Source: Desulfobacteraceae bacterium (GTDB taxonomy: Bacteria; Desulfobacterota; Desulfobacteria; Desulfobacterales; JAABSP01). Taken from it: DNA of 33,547 nucleotides. The stretch covers positions 1-33,547 of the forward strand of contig JAABSP010000056.1 in NCBI GenBank assembly GCA_011390345.1. Direction: 5' to 3'. The notes under the pieces are model-generated. The model searched no databases and was not told where the DNA came from. It saw only the letters and a list, made by a program, of their open reading frames with translations. The position numbers were made by a program, and so were the translations under genes. Below, in pieces: positions 23,536 to 32,052 of this stretch. Positions within the stretch are counted from its first letter, which is position 1; each line of letters begins with the position of its first letter.

Positions 23536-26500
23536 TCAAAAGTAATCCCCAACCAGCGTAAAGGGCGCCCAGTACCCCGGATGGGGATACCGCGCCTTTA
23601 CATGAAGAATCGCCTGCCGAAGGCTTACCGCCTTGTTCTGATTCACATACTCCCTGTAGAACTCCCGGATCAGGATCGCGGTCGATACATCGCTCACCCG
23701 CCATAGGCTCGATATCAGGGTATGGGTTCCTGCGTAGAAAAACGCGCGGTTGAGTCCGATCACGTCATCGCCGGGGGTCACTTTTCCCAATCCTGTCTGG
23801 CAGGCGCTCAGCACCACCATGTCCGCGTCCACCTTCAACCCGAAGATCTCGGCCGCTGCAAGATCGCCGTCCTGGTTGCCGCCTTTGGCCAGCTTCAGCG
23901 AGGAGAAGAGCGGATTGACCGGGTTGAACTCGCCGTGGGATGCGATGTGGATGATGCCGAAATCCCTGATGTTCTCCACCACCCATTCCTCGGTGGCCCG
24001 CGTGTCGGTCAGAACCTTGATGTCGGGAAAGTTCCACCCGATGGAGCCTACCTCGTATTCGGCAAAGGGCAGCTCCAGGGCCGGGTCCTTCAGATCGGGA
24101 TTTCCCACCGCCAGTACCTTTACATTCTTCCCATCCCGCCTGCGGCTCAGGGTATATTCCAGAAGGCTGGCCGACGGGAGATAGAAGATCGGGAACCGCT
24201 CGATCAGAAATTCGTTTCCGTCCGTGATCGCGGCAAAGGAGAGATAATGGAGCGCATTGTGGGGGATGATGCCGATGGTTCTAACGCCAGAAAGGGCATT
24301 TTCAACTGGCGCGATCAGCCATCGGTAAAGCTCTTTTGAGGCATCAGTCAGCGGCTCCAGGTTCTGGATCATCCGGCGATAGTCGAGCAGCGATTCCCCA
24401 AGGGTTTTCCGTCCGATAGGGGTGCGGAAGAGTTCGATTCCATCCTTCCGGACGACCCAGCAGAGGATCTCCTCGGGGACCGCGTAATAGACCAGCAGCG
24501 CGATCTCCGGTTCCACCAGTTCCATGATCTTTGCAGCCGAAAGGGGGGAGATGGAGACCATGGATGCCAGTTGCGGGTTCTTTGCCTGCATCTCGATCAT
24601 CAGGTCGTCCAGCTCCCCAGTCAGCCGTTCCAGCGCGTTTCCATAGAGCGCCTTCTCCTCGGGGCTTTCCGACTGGGCAAGCAGGGCTTCGTGCTCTTCG
24701 ATTCTGGCCTTCAGGGTCTGCTGCCTTTCATAGAGGAGTCGGTCCGCGCCGGCCAGAGAGAGACGCTGATTTCCCAGAAGGTCGATGAAGTTCCGGGAGC
24801 GGGAGCGCTCGGCCGTCTCCAGAGCATCTTGGATCCGGCCCATGTCCGACAGGAGGGATACCAGGGTTTCGTAGACATTGAGCTTGTTGATGATGAAGCT
24901 CTCTTTGAGCCCCTCTACCTTGATGTCGGCCCGCATCTCTTCGATTACGTCCACGGCCGCAAAGAGGTTTTCAGCGGCGCCGCTCCGGTCATCTGCGGAG
25001 AGGCGGAGCAGGGCAAGGCCATATAGGCTTCGCCATTCCATCTCTCGGAGGGCCATTTCCCTTGAAAGTTTCAGCGCATCGGTATAGGCGGCTTCCGCAC
25101 CGCTGCCGTCTCCGACGGCTCGCAGTGCATCCCCCAGACCGACCCGGCATCGGGCTTCGTTGATCCGGTTGCCGATGGATGCGGCAACTTCAGCGGCCTG
25201 TTGAAAGAGCGGCAGGGCCTCCTGTGCCCGGTCCATCTTCAGGAGGGTCTGGGCCTGGTTCCGCAGATCATGCGCGATGGCCCACCTGGAGCCGATCCGC
25301 TGGTCGATCTCAAGGGCTGCGCTAAACTTCTCTAAGGCATCCTCGTTTCGGCCCATCTCCCGCAGCACCTGGCCCATGTTGTTAAGGGTGGTTGCGATTT
25401 CGTCATCCCTTGCTTTCAGTTCTTCAGCCGCTTTCAGAGCCGTGGAAAGCTCACCCAGAGCCCGATCGTAATCGCCCAGGGTCCACCATATCAGCCCGCC
25501 GGTGTTCCTGGTGATCACCTCCATCAGAGGCCAGTCAAAGGATTGGGCCAGGGTGAACGCCTCCCGCTGGAGGGTGAAGGCTTCTTCATACCGGGCCTGG
25601 TACCAGGCGTTGTTGGCCTGTTCGATGATGATCTTTGCCCGGAGCTGCTGAAAGGCCGGGGCATCTTTGCCGGCCCTTGCGATCTTCAGAGCTTTCCCAT
25701 AATGTTCGTCTGCAGCCCTGAAATTTCCCAGCAGACGGTAACAGCGCCCCATGTCCAGCAGGGCCTGTGCCGCGCCTTGAGGATTTTCCATATCCTGGTG
25801 GATCGCAAGGGCATTTTCATAATGTTTGAGGGCCACTGCATACTGGCTCAATCGAAGGTCGTAGATTCTGCCGATGTTCGTCTGCTGCTGTGCCAGCAGT
25901 TCATCCTTTGCCAGGTCCCGGCTCAGGGACGCGGCCGACGCAAACCGCGTCAGGGCCCGGTCGTATTCGGTGGCATTTTCAAGGGCAACCCCCAGGCTGG
26001 CAAGGGCTGCGGCCTGTTCGGGGCCAAGATCGAGGTTTGCCATCATCTCGGCTGCCTCCTCCAGCAGGGGAACCGCGGCCTCATACTCCTCGTTCTGCGC
26101 GTAGAGGATGCCCAGCCGGAGGACCGCCTCGGCATGTTCTTTTGAATCGGGGGCCGCACTTTCATAGAGGTCGGAAAGGGCTTTTGCATAGCTGATGGCC
26201 CGATCCAGTTCCTCGGACCGGTATGCGCTCTCCCGTCCAAAGGAGTAAAGGGCAGGGAGATATTTTGAGAAGGCGTCCATCTCCTGCGCGATCCGGATGG
26301 CGTTCTGGAAAAGCCTTAGGGCCCGGGAAAAGTCGCGGCTTCCGAATGCCGCGCGGCCCTCTTTGATATATCCGGCGAAGTTGGCCTTGGCAAACAGTGC
26401 GGCCTCTTCCGCGTCCATGCCCCGATATCCCAGAACGGCCCAACCATCGGCTCCGGCTTGGGCCAAGGCCTGGGCCGCGTTCTTCTCTTGATAGGATTGC

Positions 26501-29500
26501 AGAAAGGGGGCTGTGGGAAAGGCTTTGTCTGTTTTCTTTTTCGGAAGCACCAGCGAGGGGAGCCCGTAGATCGCAGCCAGTTGGGAGATCAACTCCTGGT
26601 CCGGCAGCGCGGCCTTGGGCATTAAACCGAGGGAGAGTTCCGGCGAGGCAGAAAAGAGTTCTTCCAGACGGATTTTTCCTTTTCCGCTTTCCCCGGCAAT
26701 GGCCGGATATCGCTCCGGAAGCTCTCCGGCTCGGGTGGGAACGGTGGAGAAGATTTCCAGCGGTTCCAGAAGGATCAGGGTGTGGGCCTGGTTTGGATCT
26801 TCTGCTATGGTGTATCCATCGGGTGGGGGTTTTTTATAGGGAGTGGACTGAGTGGACTGAGTGGGAAAAGTGGAGGGAGTGGAGGGAATGGAGGGAATGG
26901 ACAGGATCTCCCGACGGAAGGGTTTTCGTGCCGTAACCGATCGGACCAGATGGGTTCCGCTCCAGACCTGAACCGGTTTTTTTTCACCGGCCCGACATTC
27001 TGCAAGGTCATCTCCTGCGATATAATCGGCGTTGCAGGGAATTGCTTTGGATTCAACAGTTTCAATCTCCCCGTGAAGATCATTCGCGTCGATTTCAAAG
27101 CGGATAAATCTTCTGTCCGGGCCGGGAAGTCTGATGCGATACGCCAAGTGTTCCCCATTTGGAAGGGCTTCCATCACGGACATTGCGTCGGCCGGGACTG
27201 GTCCGAACAGGGCAATGGGGCCGATGGATTGATCCCCGGATCTTGCGGAAATTGCCTCTTTGAAAATCCGTTTATATGCTTCGATCTTCTCTTCCTGCGC
27301 GGAAAAGTCGCCTTGCCGGGCCGCGGCATCGGCTTCGAGGGCGAGTCCGGTCAGGATGATCATGGTCTGCGCGGTCTTCTGGTCTGAGATCCGATAGAGA
27401 TCGGGCAGTCCGGATCGATCCGGACCGATCCGTCTGGCCAGAAGCCCTTTTTCCCCTTCCAATTGCTTCTCGATGTATCCTTTTTCCTCACCGGCCGCGG
27501 CCCAAAGCTTTTCCTTCAGATCCCAAATGCGCGTTGCCCGGGGCAGGATTTCCGCAAAAAGAGATCCCTGATTCTCCGAAAGATTTCCCAGCAGAAAGGC
27601 CATCCGATGGTACCGCTCGATTTCAAAGATTCGCTCCGCAAGGTTGAAGCCGTCTTCAATTTTTCCGGCTTTCACTGCACGGGCTACAAGGGGCGCAAAT
27701 GTCCCGACGATCTCGCCGGAGGCCGCATCCGCATCCGTAACCATTACCGATGCCAGGGCCGAAAGGGCCTTCTCCAACTCTCCCAAACCCGCAAGGGCTC
27801 GCCATTTCAGATGGTACAGCCCTCCTGCATCGGCATGTTCCAACGCTTTTTGAAAATGGGGAGCCGGGTCCTCGCCGAATTGGTCTGCCACCCCTGCAAG
27901 GTTGAGCCAAAGTGTGGCAAGCATTCCATGTGCATCCCGATTCAGGCGGTTTTCCGCGGTTTCCCCGTCTTTCGGGTTGAGGATCTCGATCCCCCGAAGA
28001 AAATGAATTCCGGCCTCCTTGAACCGGTGCATGGAAATCCCCACTGCTTCAGGATCAGCTTCAGGATCAGCTTCGGGATCAGTTTTGGAATCAGTTTTGG
28101 AATCAGCTTTTGAATGAGGTGATGCGGCTTGGGCCAATCCCATCCGGCCGATATGAACCCCCATGGTGTTCTGGTATCGAGCGGCCATCACCGGATCGGT
28201 TCCTGAAAGCTCCCGGTTGACCAGCCGGGTGGTGCGGTCTTTCAAACGGAACAGATCCCGGACCCGCTTCTGGTTCTCCGGCTTTTCAAGGCCGAGATTC
28301 TCTGCGATATGAGCGAGATTGATGGTGTTGATGAGCGCGCTCACTACGTTTTTCATGGTGAGGGCCATTTCCGCGGATTGCATAAACCGATCAAAGGCCC
28401 GAGGGGTCTCTTTTCTCGCGGCCGCGAGGTGGCCCGCACGATGATAGAGCAGCGCCACGCCGTACCGATCCCCTTGGGGAATGGTCTCCATCTTTCCATA
28501 TTCGGCCAGTTGTGCTTCAGCGGCCTCGGCTGCGGCCCCCAGTTGATCCAGCTCTGTCCGGATGCGGAAGATGAATGCCTGTGCAAGGCGAATCTCCTGA
28601 TCCTTTGTAAAGCCGTATGCGGCCTGTGTGGCAGATCCCGCATCCAGAGCAATCGATACCTGAATTCCGATGAGCCCTTCGCTCTTGCTCTCCGCTTTCG
28701 TCGGTTCCGGAACCCCGTACTGCTCTACCAGCCCAAGGGCCTCTTCAAATCCCGCGGCCGAGCGCAGAAGCATCTCCTTTCTGGCATCGCCGGACAGGGT
28801 TCCCGCGAGCTGATACTGATTATAAGCTGCAGAACGCCGGTTCCGTGCCATGTTTTGGTTCAGCCCCAAGTCCCGGTTGAGGGAGAATGCCTCAGAAAAT
28901 GCCTCTGCTGCCTTCTCCCACTCTCCAGCCTCCTGATAGGCAAGCCCTAGCCGGTCCGTCATCTCGGCCTTGAGCTGAGCCAGCCGCGGGGGAAATTCCA
29001 AAGCCTCCTGCACCCGCCGTGCCATGTGGTTCAGGGTCTGGCCCGGATTGTCGGGTCTGGGGGGCGGCAGCATCCTGGCCAGCTCGGCCCCTTGTGGGAG
29101 GAGGGGCATCTGCTCGCTTAACAGTGCGGACATCCCCTTTTCATAGGCGTTCCATTCCGGGGAGGGCGGCGGCTTCACTGTTTCCCCGGTCAGCCGGTAG
29201 AGCTTCCGATGGATTCCGGCCTGCTGTTCTCCCAGGGCTTGGGCCTGCCGGTTCTCGCGATTTCCCTGGATCAGCGGCGCCACTACCCGATCCATGATAT
29301 ACCGGTTGATCCGATCCATGGCTTCGGACGCGGTCTTGGGGGCCATGTGATCGTCGATGAGCGCGATCGATTTTTCAAATGCGAAGATGGTCCGCTCCGG
29401 CTCCCGGGCCTGGAACGCGGATGTACCCAGCCGGCGATAGAAGAGGATCTCGGTGTTGGGATCGTCAAAGGGCACATCCGCTTCCAGCCGCTGGGTGTAA

Positions 29501-32052
29501 TAGCGGAATGCGTTCCGGTACTGGTTAAGCAGGAAAAAGGTATTGGCCAGATTGAGGCGAAGATCGGCCGCATTCCGCGGATTTGCGGCCTGATCATTCA
29601 GAAAATAGGCTTTTTTATAGGATTCCAGGGCCTTTTCCAGGTTTCCCTTTTTCCCATAGACCGTCTCCAGCACCTCGAAGACATACCCCAGGGTCTGGTG
29701 GAAATACTCGACCCGGCCGTCCAGCGCCACTGCCTGCATCAGCAATTCTCTGGCCTCTTCGATGGATGGTTCGTCTTCGAGGTAGGTGAGAGCAAGCCCT
29801 GTAGCATAGACCCTTACCGGATCATTCGGATTTTCGGCCCGCTGATTTCGATAATCCGCGATCAGGCCTTTGATGTCGCCCATGGCCGCGGCCGATCTGA
29901 TATAGCCCCGGTGTGCCTCCACAATGGAGGGATCGTAGGTGAGCAGTTCCTTGAACTTGTTCCGCGCGGCAGGAACCTCTCCAAGGCGGAAGAGGTAATC
30001 CCCGGCTGCGGCCGATTTCCGGATATAGCCGGTCCGGGCCAACTGGTAGATCCGGTCCGCATAGGGTCGGGTCGCCATCTCCGCCTCATACAGCGCGAGG
30101 GCCTGGCTGAATCGCTCTTCCCGATAGAGGATTTCGGCCAGGGCAAGACGAGCCCCGGCGGTCTGGGTGATCATCTCTGAAAAACCTTCCAGCACCTGCC
30201 GGTAAACCCCCTTGGCCAGTGCCCATTCATCGGCCTCGTAATAGAGATCCCCCACCCGGTTGAGGGCCCCGGCTGAAAGCCTCGGCATATGCTCCTTGTT
30301 CTCCTGGGCAATCCCCCGCAGACGCTTCACCTTCTCCGGCAATGCATCGGAAATCTCCGATTCGAGCTGTAGGTCGATGATCCGGCTCACCGCGATATCG
30401 GCCTGGGGCAGCACATCCGGGTAGTTTTCCACCACCGAAAGATAGAGGGGATAGATCTGATCGGCCATGCCCAGAGCCCCATAGAGATCGGCCTTCAGCA
30501 GCGTGGCCTGGGCCCGATCCTTTGGGGTCTGTGCGTTCTCTTCGATCACCCGATCGAGTTGATCTGCCATTGCCAGCATCTCCGAGGCATCGGGTCCGAC
30601 CTTCAGCAGAAGTCGTGCCTGTCTGATAATCGCATGTGCAGAGACCGGGGGACGGTTATTCGCCGCACCCGCGGCCTTTAACTGCGAAAGACCCTGTGCA
30701 AGGGCTTTTTCCAGATCTTTCTCTGCCCCATCAATCTCCTTTGAAGTCTTCACCGCGATTCTCGAGATCCGGGCCAAGGGGCCATAGGGCCAGACATCTC
30801 CATACCGCTCTTCCACAAGCTCGAATGACCAAAGCGCAGCCTCTGCCATCTCCGCTTCATCGTAGATCCGGCCGATCTCATACCCGGCCTGCGCGGCAAG
30901 CTCCCGGCTTTCAGGGAATCTCTCCAGCATCCGGTAAAAGGCCAGCGCGGTCAGATGGGGATCAAAGGGAAGGGTCGATGCGATATGTTGGGCCAGGGCT
31001 ATCTGATCCTCGGGGCCCGGCTGCAGGGGGATCTGCCCATCTGAGGGAAGAGCCCAGGCATTGGTGATTCCGCCCCGGTCCGACAGGAAAAAGAGCTTTC
31101 CGCGGCCGGTTTTGGGCATAAATGACGCATATCCGGCCGAGGTCAGGGGATACGGGATCTCGACCCCCTTTCCCCGGGTCTTCTGCTTTTCCCTGTCGAT
31201 CCTGATCCGGTAGATCGCGGGGTTGTCTCCGGCCGTGACGGCCCCATCGCCGTCGGTATCGGCAAAGAAGCGGGAGAAGAGAACCCAACCGCCATCCTCT
31301 GACCAGGCCGGAAAGAGGTCGGTGTAGGCGTCATGGGTCAACCGGATGATCTGTTCCGTTTTCAGGTCGATCATATGGATATCCCCTTCCCGATGCCCCT
31401 GAAAGGTGACGAACGCGATCCGGGTTCCATCCGGAGAGACCGCGGGAAATGTGCCGTTCTCCGCGATCGTTTTGACCGAATGGGCGGGATCGGTTAGATC
31501 CATCGCCACAATTCGACGAACCCCTTCAATGCCCCTAACCTGATGGAAATATAGGGTCTTTCCGTTTGGAGAAAAGCAGGGCCCTCCATCCTCGCTCTCC
31601 GAACCCGTGAGGCGGATCGGTTCGGAAGATTCACTGCTGAGATCCAGCAGAAAAAGGTCCCCCTTCACATCGTTTCCGGTTCCCACATAGACGACTTTCC
31701 GCCCGTCCCGGGAGATCGCGGGAAAGGATTTGTCCGAAGGATCATCGGTCAGGCGCCGGGGAAGCACCACCTGCGCGGGATCGGCCGACAGGAGCCAGAG
31801 ATCGGTCTCCGCGCCCGGGCCCGTTCCCCGGGCGGCCGTATAGACCAGCCATCGGCCATCTTTGGAAACCGAGACATGGCGCACCGGGCTGGTCTCCGAT
31901 GTGATCTGCTCGGGCTTGTGGATCGGGAGCTGAACCGGGAGCTGAACCGGGCCTTTGGCACTGCCGCTTTGGACCGGGAAAATGAGGAGCGCCAGGGAGA
32001 GCAGAAGGATCAGGCTCGGGATTTCAAGGAGATGTTTGTCAGGGGTTTTCAT
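23536..32052 (-). CDS. Giant exported propeller-TPR-pseudoCHAT-TPR-CHAT protein
   Basis: A 2838-residue protein. Signal peptide at 1-34 (LLEIPSLILLLSLALLIFP). Residues ~45-330 are PD40/TolB-type propeller blades (VSVSKDGRWLVYTA, PCFSPNGKTLYFH, AVSPDGTRIAFVT, PAWSEDGGWVLFS) with an EF-loop-like DTDGDGAVTAGD near 262. TPRs fill ~370-1470. At ~1470-1890 an AERIF helix, a coiled coil and a CHAT-like core recur without His or Cys. A second TPR array covers ~1890-2410. The C-terminal CHAT protease has His2706 (IASHGEF) and Cys2751 (LSACQTGLG), then AGTHTLISSLWRV. CHAT peptidases are caspase-like. The ATG at 32052 is chosen because the longer frame's TTG lies in the -35 box. A propeller and signal suggest a periplasmic or secreted location (inference). 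Confidence 0.9.
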   Translation of the reverse strand: MKTPDKHLLEIPSLILLLSLALLIFPVQSGSAKGPVQLPVQLPIHKPEQITSETSPVRHVSVSKDGRWLVYTAARGTGPGAETDLWLLSADPAQVVLPRRLTDDPSDKSFPAISRDGRKVVYVGTGNDVKGDLFLLDLSSESSEPIRLTGSESEDGGPCFSPNGKTLYFHQVRGIEGVRRIVAMDLTDPAHSVKTIAENGTFPAVSPDGTRIAFVTFQGHREGDIHMIDLKTEQIIRLTHDAYTDLFPAWSEDGGWVLFSRFFADTDGDGAVTAGDNPAIYRIRIDREKQKTRGKGVEIPYPLTSAGYASFMPKTGRGKLFFLSDRGGITNAWALPSDGQIPLQPGPEDQIALAQHIASTLPFDPHLTALAFYRMLERFPESRELAAQAGYEIGRIYDEAEMAEAALWSFELVEERYGDVWPYGPLARISRIAVKTSKEIDGAEKDLEKALAQGLSQLKAAGAANNRPPVSAHAIIRQARLLLKVGPDASEMLAMADQLDRVIEENAQTPKDRAQATLLKADLYGALGMADQIYPLYLSVVENYPDVLPQADIAVSRIIDLQLESEISDALPEKVKRLRGIAQENKEHMPRLSAGALNRVGDLYYEADEWALAKGVYRQVLEGFSEMITQTAGARLALAEILYREERFSQALALYEAEMATRPYADRIYQLARTGYIRKSAAAGDYLFRLGEVPAARNKFKELLTYDPSIVEAHRGYIRSAAAMGDIKGLIADYRNQRAENPNDPVRVYATGLALTYLEDEPSIEEARELLMQAVALDGRVEYFHQTLGYVFEVLETVYGKKGNLEKALESYKKAYFLNDQAANPRNAADLRLNLANTFFLLNQYRNAFRYYTQRLEADVPFDDPNTEILFYRRLGTSAFQAREPERTIFAFEKSIALIDDHMAPKTASEAMDRINRYIMDRVVAPLIQGNRENRQAQALGEQQAGIHRKLYRLTGETVKPPPSPEWNAYEKGMSALLSEQMPLLPQGAELARMLPPPRPDNPGQTLNHMARRVQEALEFPPRLAQLKAEMTDRLGLAYQEAGEWEKAAEAFSEAFSLNRDLGLNQNMARNRRSAAYNQYQLAGTLSGDARKEMLLRSAAGFEEALGLVEQYGVPEPTKAESKSEGLIGIQVSIALDAGSATQAAYGFTKDQEIRLAQAFIFRIRTELDQLGAAAEAAEAQLAEYGKMETIPQGDRYGVALLYHRAGHLAAARKETPRAFDRFMQSAEMALTMKNVVSALINTINLAHIAENLGLEKPENQKRVRDLFRLKDRTTRLVNRELSGTDPVMAARYQNTMGVHIGRMGLAQAASPHSKADSKTDSKTDPEADPEADPEAVGISMHRFKEAGIHFLRGIEILNPKDGETAENRLNRDAHGMLATLWLNLAGVADQFGEDPAPHFQKALEHADAGGLYHLKWRALAGLGELEKALSALASVMVTDADAASGEIVGTFAPLVARAVKAGKIEDGFNLAERIFEIERYHRMAFLLGNLSENQGSLFAEILPRATRIWDLKEKLWAAAGEEKGYIEKQLEGEKGLLARRIGPDRSGLPDLYRISDQKTAQTMIILTGLALEADAAARQGDFSAQEEKIEAYKRIFKEAISARSGDQSIGPIALFGPVPADAMSVMEALPNGEHLAYRIRLPGPDRRFIRFEIDANDLHGEIETVESKAIPCNADYIAGDDLAECRAGEKKPVQVWSGTHLVRSVTARKPFRREILSIPSIPSTPSTFPTQSTQSTPYKKPPPDGYTIAEDPNQAHTLILLEPLEIFSTVPTRAGELPERYPAIAGESGKGKIRLEELFSASPELSLGLMPKAALPDQELISQLAAIYGLPSLVLPKKKTDKAFPTAPFLQSYQEKNAAQALAQAGADGWAVLGYRGMDAEEAALFAKANFAGYIKEGRAAFGSRDFSRALRLFQNAIRIAQEMDAFSKYLPALYSFGRESAYRSEELDRAISYAKALSDLYESAAPDSKEHAEAVLRLGILYAQNEEYEAAVPLLEEAAEMMANLDLGPEQAAALASLGVALENATEYDRALTRFASAASLSRDLAKDELLAQQQTNIGRIYDLRLSQYAVALKHYENALAIHQDMENPQGAAQALLDMGRCYRLLGNFRAADEHYGKALKIARAGKDAPAFQQLRAKIIIEQANNAWYQARYEEAFTLQREAFTLAQSFDWPLMEVITRNTGGLIWWTLGDYDRALGELSTALKAAEELKARDDEIATTLNNMGQVLREMGRNEDALEKFSAALEIDQRIGSRWAIAHDLRNQAQTLLKMDRAQEALPLFQQAAEVAASIGNRINEARCRVGLGDALRAVGDGSGAEAAYTDALKLSREMALREMEWRSLYGLALLRLSADDRSGAAENLFAAVDVIEEMRADIKVEGLKESFIINKLNVYETLVSLLSDMGRIQDALETAERSRSRNFIDLLGNQRLSLAGADRLLYERQQTLKARIEEHEALLAQSESPEEKALYGNALERLTGELDDLMIEMQAKNPQLASMVSISPLSAAKIMELVEPEIALLVYYAVPEEILCWVVRKDGIELFRTPIGRKTLGESLLDYRRMIQNLEPLTDASKELYRWLIAPVENALSGVRTIGIIPHNALHYLSFAAITDGNEFLIERFPIFYLPSASLLEYTLSRRRDGKNVKVLAVGNPDLKDPALELPFAEYEVGSIGWNFPDIKVLTDTRATEEWVVENIRDFGIIHIASHGEFNPVNPLFSSLKLAKGGNQDGDLAAAEIFGLKVDADMVVLSACQTGLGKVTPGDDVIGLNRAFFYAGTHTLISSLWRVSDVSTAILIREFYREYVNQNKAVSLRQAILHVKARYPHPGYWAPFTLVGDYF
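26841..26900 (-). repeat. 9-nt tandem repeat in the CHAT gene
   Basis: Units such as GAGTGGACT, GAGTGGAGG and GAATGGAGG (plus-strand reading) repeat about six to seven times. On the coding strand they give a Ser-Thr/Ile-Pro/Gln-rich linker (around residues 1715-1737) inside the degenerate CHAT region. Confidence 0.8.
28052..28111 (-). repeat. 12-nt tandem repeat in the CHAT gene
   Basis: Five 12-nt units (28052-28063, 28064-28075, 28076-28087, 28088-28099, 28100-28111), about GGATCAGCTTCA on the plus strand, encode a Lys/Asp/Ser then Pro/Glu/Ala/Asp linker (about residues 1314-1334) between TPR groups. Confidence 0.85.
31924..31947 (-). repeat. 12-nt direct duplication after the CHAT signal peptide
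   Basis: CGGGAGCTGAAC (plus strand) occurs twice in tandem and encodes Pro-Val-Gln-Leu twice, in the linker between the signal peptide and the propeller. Confidence 0.8.

Follow-up and report, generated by a model that had tools for sequence, protein, structure and literature searches.

In separase, a eukaryotic protease of clan CD, a helical solenoid leads into a caspase-like protease of two lobes, one a pseudoprotease and the other active. Csx29, which is cytoplasmic, also carries one protease unit. This unit is reported to go with a TPR region and to be composed of a pseudo-caspase lobe (CHAT1) and an active lobe (CHAT2; PMC10028731, PMC9729208), and binding of non-self RNA to bring the catalytic dyad together (PMC9729208). 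A membrane-tied CHAT protein is represented by DdvA (PDB 8rot/8rw5, "CHAT domain-containing protein", transmembrane anti-sigma factor), a chain of 991 aa. With respect to the genetic context considered here, the closest described system is the E. coli ydbH-ynbE-ydbL locus, an AsmA-type lipid transport locus in which an AsmA-like protein is encoded beside a DUF1318 (YdbL-family) protein. YnbE is described to act with YdbH in lipid transport (PMC11784454), and a plasmid carrying ydbH-ynbE-ydbL to enable growth on MacConkey agar in a double mutant of tamB and yhdP (PMC8593681). A search of the open-licence PMC literature returned neither a tandem CHAT protein nor a CHAT protein associated with AsmA or DUF1318. 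Here, we describe a bacterial protein with a signal-like N-terminus and a TolB-like propeller in which, unlike in separase or Csx29, the whole two-lobed unit is predicted to occur twice, the first time with a dead second lobe.

Results

The window (the whole stretch of DNA analyzed, 33,547 nucleotides from a Desulfobacteraceae bacterium) contains an intact giant gene on the minus strand (23536-32052; ATG at 32052, stop codon at 23536-23538) encoding 2838 aa; all parts of the protein given below are encoded on the same strand. Residues 1-34 (31951-32052) resemble a signal peptide by hydropathy and are followed by TolB-like PD40 propeller repeats (residues ∼60-270; 31243-31875; Pfam PD40, E 4.8e-17), for which TolB models stayed below their cut-offs and TolB chains were matched in the PDB. 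A first TPR/helical solenoid, recognized by Pfam TPR families (residues ∼380-1430, boundaries approximate; 27763-30915), leads to module 1 (residues 1440-1915; 26308-27735), which comprises linker helices and a dead two-lobed CHAT/separase-like domain, as assigned from profiles, a structure model, structural matches, and the distant homologue L183. The second TPR solenoid (residues 1916-2380; 24913-26307) was delineated by Pfam TPR_12 and other families and by helices in the model of homologue L142. Module 2 (residues 2385-2838; 23539-24900) again comprises linker helices and a CHAT domain; the latter was matched by Pfam CHAT (PF12770) at residues 2571-2836 with 214.2 bits (gathering score 24; E 3.5e-63), the strongest of the seven CHAT matches in the genome of the window. 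Some 500 residues lie between module 1 and the C-terminal CHAT domain. A first-pass annotation of this DNA had described the C-terminal CHAT domain as intact, with His2706 and Cys2751; both residues are correct, and the motifs it had quoted are found in place (GFNLAERIF at 1468, ALPNGEHLAYRI at 1629, LPKKKT at 1836, and LETAERS at 2411).

Of the 291 genomes searched in the order, 37 had the giant, as a rule at a single locus per genome, and the module-1 region found relatives in three of the four genomes of the family, that of the window included. Module 1 of the window alone, used as query in the first contig scan of genomes, found no relative; an alignment of residues 1410-2240 yielded 98 relatives in a collection of 84,980 species, with two search patterns bounding what was findable. 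The best 80 of the 98 were kept and, together with the window, form an alignment of 81 rows. The record titles among these best 80 name Desulfobacterales, Desulfovibrionales (Humidesulfovibrio and others), Desulfuromonadales/Geobacteraceae, and one Desulfobulbaceae, all of which we take to belong to the Desulfobacterota; some titles give "Deltaproteobacteria" or "Proteobacteria" only. Locus L096 is from Desulfonema magnum 4be13 and locus L144 from Geobacter sp. OR-1. ORFs longer than 2500 aa were present in 64 sequences of this set (the window plus the best 80 of 98) and span 2706-3188 aa from stop to stop. In 59 of the 64 full-length sequences, a hydrophobic 15-mer precedes the propeller, and in one of the 64 a transmembrane-like stretch was seen further along, both judged by hydropathy only and not by a trained predictor. 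Going by these N-termini, the giant is probably exported.

According to the first-pass annotation, the layout of the C-terminal module recurs in module 1, which had been concluded by eye. Single-sequence comparisons did not bear this out: self-comparison of the giant gave a best E of 0.078 with BLASTP, no match with phmmer, and nothing significant with hhalign, and the Smith-Waterman self-alignment score of 53 was equalled by 4 of 300 shuffles. Profile against profile, the recurrence was significant. With 81 and 75 rows (from the best 80 of 98 relatives plus the window), hhalign aligned module 1 (1440-1915) with module 2 (2385-2838) over 282 colinear columns at a probability of 92, a score of 60.4, and an E of 5.3e-7, which holds for one pair and not for a database; an earlier comparison with 37 and 33 rows had given a probability of 80 and an E of 1.3e-5. 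The controls were clean, with scores of 19.3 and 17.4 for reversed profiles, a mean of 17.9 and a maximum of 25.2 for 20 column shuffles, and at most 22.9 for nine segments of the same protein not overlapping module 1 (overlapping segments scored 20.6 to 56.7). Judged by their profiles, the two modules are thus homologous, and the by-eye observation ran ahead of the single-sequence statistics.

The profile signal peaks over the helical linker and the first strands. The CHAT core alone, within the family of the window, gave a weak match (score 29.9, E 0.0027, versus 17.2 reversed), and that of the catalytic lobe alone (score 23.6, E 0.0026, obtained without a control) was not convincing; for this part of module 1, the assignment depends on the structure model and L183. 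Pfam CHAT was found in none of the 79 module-1 sequences (from the best 80 of 98 relatives plus the window) at E ≤0.1, nor, among the matches listed, in module 1 of the window at E ≤10. A sequence search of the PDB with the module-1 profile returned four matches at E ≤1. Three of them were S-layer chains, the best with an E of 0.003, and the fourth was a mitoribosome chain; all were judged to reflect a helical/coiled-coil effect and were discarded.

For residues 1440-1915, AlphaFold2 with 79 sequences returned a model with a pLDDT of 90.7 and a pTM of 0.91. Foldseek alone was weak for this model, with a single match below 0.001: the best hit was DdvA, whose host is presumably Myxococcus (E 1.8e-4), and Csx29 ranked third (E 0.05). 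DdvA also matched the C-terminal half of the giant (E 3.4e-15); it differs by its anti-sigma role and its chain length. A second look with VIA-align, which ranks the candidates of Foldseek only, placed human separase first (Z 16.7, 281 aa, rmsd 4.0), with the Craspase TPR-CHAT protein Csx29 at Z 16.5 (292 aa, rmsd 4.2, model residues 2-438). Separase and Craspase chains scored Z 10-17 within model residues 1-449, and their matches together span model residues 2-442, i.e., the linker helices and both lobes. For comparison, module 2 in a second model matched separase ctSPD (5fc2) with Z 26.5 (rmsd 3.0, 296 aa). This second, joint model, which holds both modules (homologue L142, 1199 aa), had a pTM of 0.66 and moderate inter-domain confidence; by eye, the secondary-structure elements of the two modules run nearly parallel in it. 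The fold that the first-pass annotation had anticipated for this region is hence the one predicted: over its whole length, module 1 is modeled as caspase/separase-like. Cleavage of cohesin and control by securin, as in separase, would not be expected of a bacterial protein. The module-1 model was also matched by the ciliary central pair chains 7n6g_1N and 9ijj_B (Z 15.0 and 12.6), and an axonemal protein may accordingly hold a CHAT-like domain.

When the search with the module-1 profile was extended to the phylum, 14 of 395 genomes gave matches. Two distant homologues, L182 (genome G316) and L183 (G350), were matched at the C-terminal part of the profile only, and an ordinary CHAT protein of genome G025 was matched with an E of 8e-6. 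The latter (L181:1265-3655) is a TPR-CHAT protein of 797 aa with a lipobox-like start (LSQISGC), possibly another exported CHAT protein. Module 1 of L183 (aa 1300-1760) is 23% identical to the CHAT domain of the window over 389 columns (two-sequence E 7e-23) and is itself matched by Pfam CHAT with 68.2 bits (cut-off 24; E 1e-18) over positions 7-288 of 289. At the sites of the dyad, it has MIHITDSL where CHAT has IIHIASHG (His to Ser), and VVITAVSG for VVLSACQT (Cys to Val). Although it is a single sequence, for which G411 contains a partial relative (225 residues at 80% identity), L183 provides the clearest evidence for module 1 being a CHAT domain. In the more diverged L182, module 1 had no Pfam CHAT match, the only one being that of the C-terminal domain, and BLAST against CHAT gave an E of 0.11. 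A tree was computed from module 1 of L182 and L183, eight module-2 CHAT domains, six other CHAT domains of the window's genome, and the G025 protein, with module 1 of the window left out. The two module-1 rows paired (support 82) outside a group (support 95) comprising all module-2 rows, the G025 protein, and two of the CHAT domains from the window's own genome. This topology gives no support to a tandem duplication, although the long branches of the tree weaken the argument. Within the dead CHAT domain of L183, a stretch of ∼28 codons (L183:7740-7823) matches many short stretches in G350, G411, and G384; the copies are mostly 63-91% identical, and the stretch resembles an in-frame repeated element inserted in a protein domain.

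That the modules resemble each other by coincidence, module 1 having an unrelated fold, would agree with the non-significant single-sequence tests, with the lack of Pfam CHAT in the 79 module-1 members, and with the failure of BLAST to link L182 directly to CHAT. It is contradicted by the Pfam CHAT match of L183, and the controlled profile match, the AlphaFold model, and the matches to separase and Csx29 structures also argue against it, which leaves this reading with hardly any credibility.

In module 2, both His2706 (23935-23937) and Cys2751 (23800-23802) are present in 74 of 74 covering rows among the 81 (best 80 of 98 plus the window). Not counted were the other seven rows (L087, L089, L092, L109, L112, L132, and L133), in which the ORF or the contig stops short of this stretch or within it; odd residues shown by L092 and L132 in the alignment are artefacts of ORF ends. 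Module 2 is, judging from this conservation, probably a working cysteine protease. In module 1, the site equivalent to the catalytic His falls into LLEPL (∼1762-1766; 26755-26769), as placed by the L183 alignment and the strand order, its columns being variable, and that equivalent to the catalytic Cys into LMPKAA (∼1810-1815; 26608-26625), as placed by profiles and L183 with a register uncertain by 1-2 residues. Row L185 of the alignment with L183, an antisense ORF, was disregarded. Across the 81 rows (best 80 of 98 plus the window), His occurs in at most four in any column of 1758-1768, and Cys is absent from 1809-1819 and present at 1808 in two. Conserved histidines are found elsewhere in module 1, at 1701 (89%), 1824 (80%), and 1757 (62%), and the commonest cysteine of the catalytic lobe is at 1831 (38%, in a GCPS motif); none of them is at an aligned dyad position. 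As the alignments and the predicted fold together show, module 1 is devoid of the catalytic His and Cys and is retained as a pseudoprotease.

The essence of the first-pass annotation, a pseudo-CHAT and an active CHAT domain in one chain, is thus supported by the caspase-like model, by Pfam CHAT in L183, and by dyad positions that are unconserved in module 1 and fully conserved in module 2, but its register was partly wrong. It had taken LPKKKT for a replaced LSACQT; since the profile and L183 register puts the Cys site in LMPKAA, LPKKKT is no degenerate LSACQT and instead pairs, via L183 and profiles, with the strand after the next helix, SSLWRVSD. The other pairing out of register was that of AGTHT with AGADG. 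In the profile alignments, the counterpart of AGTHTLISSLWRVSD is not AGADGWAVLGYRG but IYGLPSLVLPKKKTDK; WAVLGY is located at the end of the module 1 fold (model strand 432-436). Because a CHAT/separase protease already consists of a pseudo-caspase lobe and an active lobe, module 1 is more than the usual pseudo lobe, namely, a complete two-lobed unit with a dead second lobe.

Module 1 belongs to the less conserved regions of the giant, with a mean column identity of 0.27-0.38 over residues 1501-1900 versus 0.52-0.82 over 2551-2838. This, its distance from module 2 in the chain, and the moderate inter-domain confidence of the L142 model are what would be expected if the dead CHAT domain did not regulate anything and were retained only to fill the space between the two TPR arms. 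However, the region was occupied (≥60% of its length) in 81 of 81 rows (best 80 of 98 plus the window), although these rows had been found through patterns outside module 1, in the second TPR region. Moreover, the 79 module-1 sequences share invariant or nearly invariant positions of their own and the conserved stretches THLxRSxxxRKPF, VPTRxG, GHLxSLxGxPS, and LLGxxGM, which argues for a maintained domain and not a relic. We therefore regard a filler role as rather doubtful. The same stretches could mark a peptidase-dead module 1 that has become a binding domain (for a lipid, a peptide, or a lipoprotein) or another enzyme. Among the 12 Pfam families matched at E ≤0.1, each in one or two of the 79 members and none of them CHAT, the best E was 0.014 and no ligand or enzyme family was included, so that a function of this kind, too, would be a somewhat unexpected outcome.

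The gene neighborhood was surveyed at the 80 loci of the best 80 of 98 relatives. Of these, 54 combine a long ORF for the giant with an upstream flank exceeding 4.2 kb, and 51 have a downstream flank exceeding 2.5 kb. Upstream, an AsmA-like protein was encoded at 48 of 54 loci and a DUF1318 protein at 42 of 54 (at 40 within 400 bases of the frame of the giant), all on the same strand; the six loci without an AsmA-like neighbor are L076, L082, L096, L103, L104, and L127. Downstream, within 2 kb and on the same strand, an M48 peptidase was found at 35 of 51 loci and an SH3 protein at 26 of 51. Misses are likely in these counts because the neighboring ORFs were picked mechanically. The usual gene order is AsmA-like, DUF1318 (YdbL-family) lipoprotein-like, giant, often followed by SH3 and M48. 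DUF1318 was matched with 33.3 and 32.5 bits (cut-off 27) in L131 and L090, and the AsmA-like protein of L080 by AsmA (52.1 versus 29.8) and DUF748 (59.9 versus 50); its relative in L126 had no Pfam match. A strict pattern found a lipobox-like N-terminus in 34 of 49 DUF1318 proteins. As for the deep homologues, that of G316 keeps the order AsmA-like, DUF1318, giant (L187), L188 keeps the AsmA-like gene, and that of G350 (L186) has neither an AsmA-like nor a DUF1318 gene within the 19 kb examined. At a separate site of genome G000 (contig C194; L176:1331-4912), genes for a 952-aa protein, an 85-aa lipoprotein-like protein, and a DUF1318 protein stand in a row, possibly a classical ydbH-ynbE-ydbL cluster distinct from the giant-associated lipoprotein.

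In the window, a TrkA-type gene flanks the giant on one side and an ORF reaching the contig end on the other; the genes around it here have other functions. The contig-end ORF (window:32222-33547) is divergent and runs off the contig; its product has a lipoprotein-like start and a DDDG repeat tail, and no Pfam match. In the genome of the window, the AsmA-like gene is on contig C141 and that for the DUF1318 lipoprotein on C129, both unlinked to the giant; in G002 and G116, the two genes adjoin each other but not the giant. Across the 291 genomes of the order, 37 had the giant, 38 the lipoprotein, and 36 both, with one genome having the giant only and two the lipoprotein only (Fisher 1.8e-42, which ignores relatedness); the two lipoprotein-only genomes contain the first 800 to 1400 residues of the giant running off a contig end. 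Because the genes co-occur also where they are unlinked, the association goes beyond adjacency, as far as presence tells.

The match to the Csx29 structure might also point to defence, with the giant serving a conflict system as a CHAT effector, be it Csx29/Craspase-like or of another kind, and the NCBIfam model of Csx29 (NF041237) did match it weakly. The score, 55.8 bits, is nevertheless far under the cut-off of 300, no Cas family was detected in the 20 window ORFs scanned, the usual neighbors are of the envelope type, and neither the single locus per genome as a rule nor the signal-like N-terminus fits such a role, which is accordingly very improbable.

Discussion

The combination of features described above would be best explained by an exported envelope giant in which a TolB-like propeller and two TPR solenoids form the scaffold for two CHAT/separase-type domains. 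The pseudo-CHAT domain, having lost cleavage, would serve as a docking or regulatory platform and, via the TPR arm, might control how accessible or how active the C-terminal CHAT domain is. Operon structure and co-occurrence suggest that the giant works with the AsmA-like membrane protein, the DUF1318 lipoprotein, and M48 peptidases. Since this partner set resembles ydbH-ynbE-ydbL, the giant would likely exert proteolytic control or quality control over an intermembrane lipid-transport bridge; the set differs from that of E. coli in that its DUF1318 protein looks like a lipoprotein and in that the giant CHAT protein, SH3, and M48 are added. Taken as a whole, an exported scaffold that combines a protease with a putatively regulatory pseudoprotease and cooperates with an AsmA-type intermembrane lipid system is the reading we favor, with fair but limited confidence. 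What counts against it is that a location outside the cytoplasm would be unusual for a CHAT cysteine protease, that the joint model of both modules reached a pTM of only 0.66, that the neighbors in the window have other functions, and that an AsmA-like neighbor is missing at six of 54 loci and both partners at the G350 locus within 19 kb. A bolder version, in which a separase-like envelope protease gates the AsmA-type lipid bridge by regulated cleavage while the dead copy acts as a securin-like sensor or inhibitor, seems unlikely to us.

The known CHAT and separase structures compared here contain one two-lobed unit, and the giant a whole second, catalytically dead one. This dead unit is conserved across several delta-proteobacterial lineages and was missed by Pfam in 79 of 79 sequences scanned. 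The ties of the giant to AsmA-like and DUF1318 genes, seen in gene order and co-occurrence, would give a caspase-like protease a part in the lipid homeostasis of the outer membrane.
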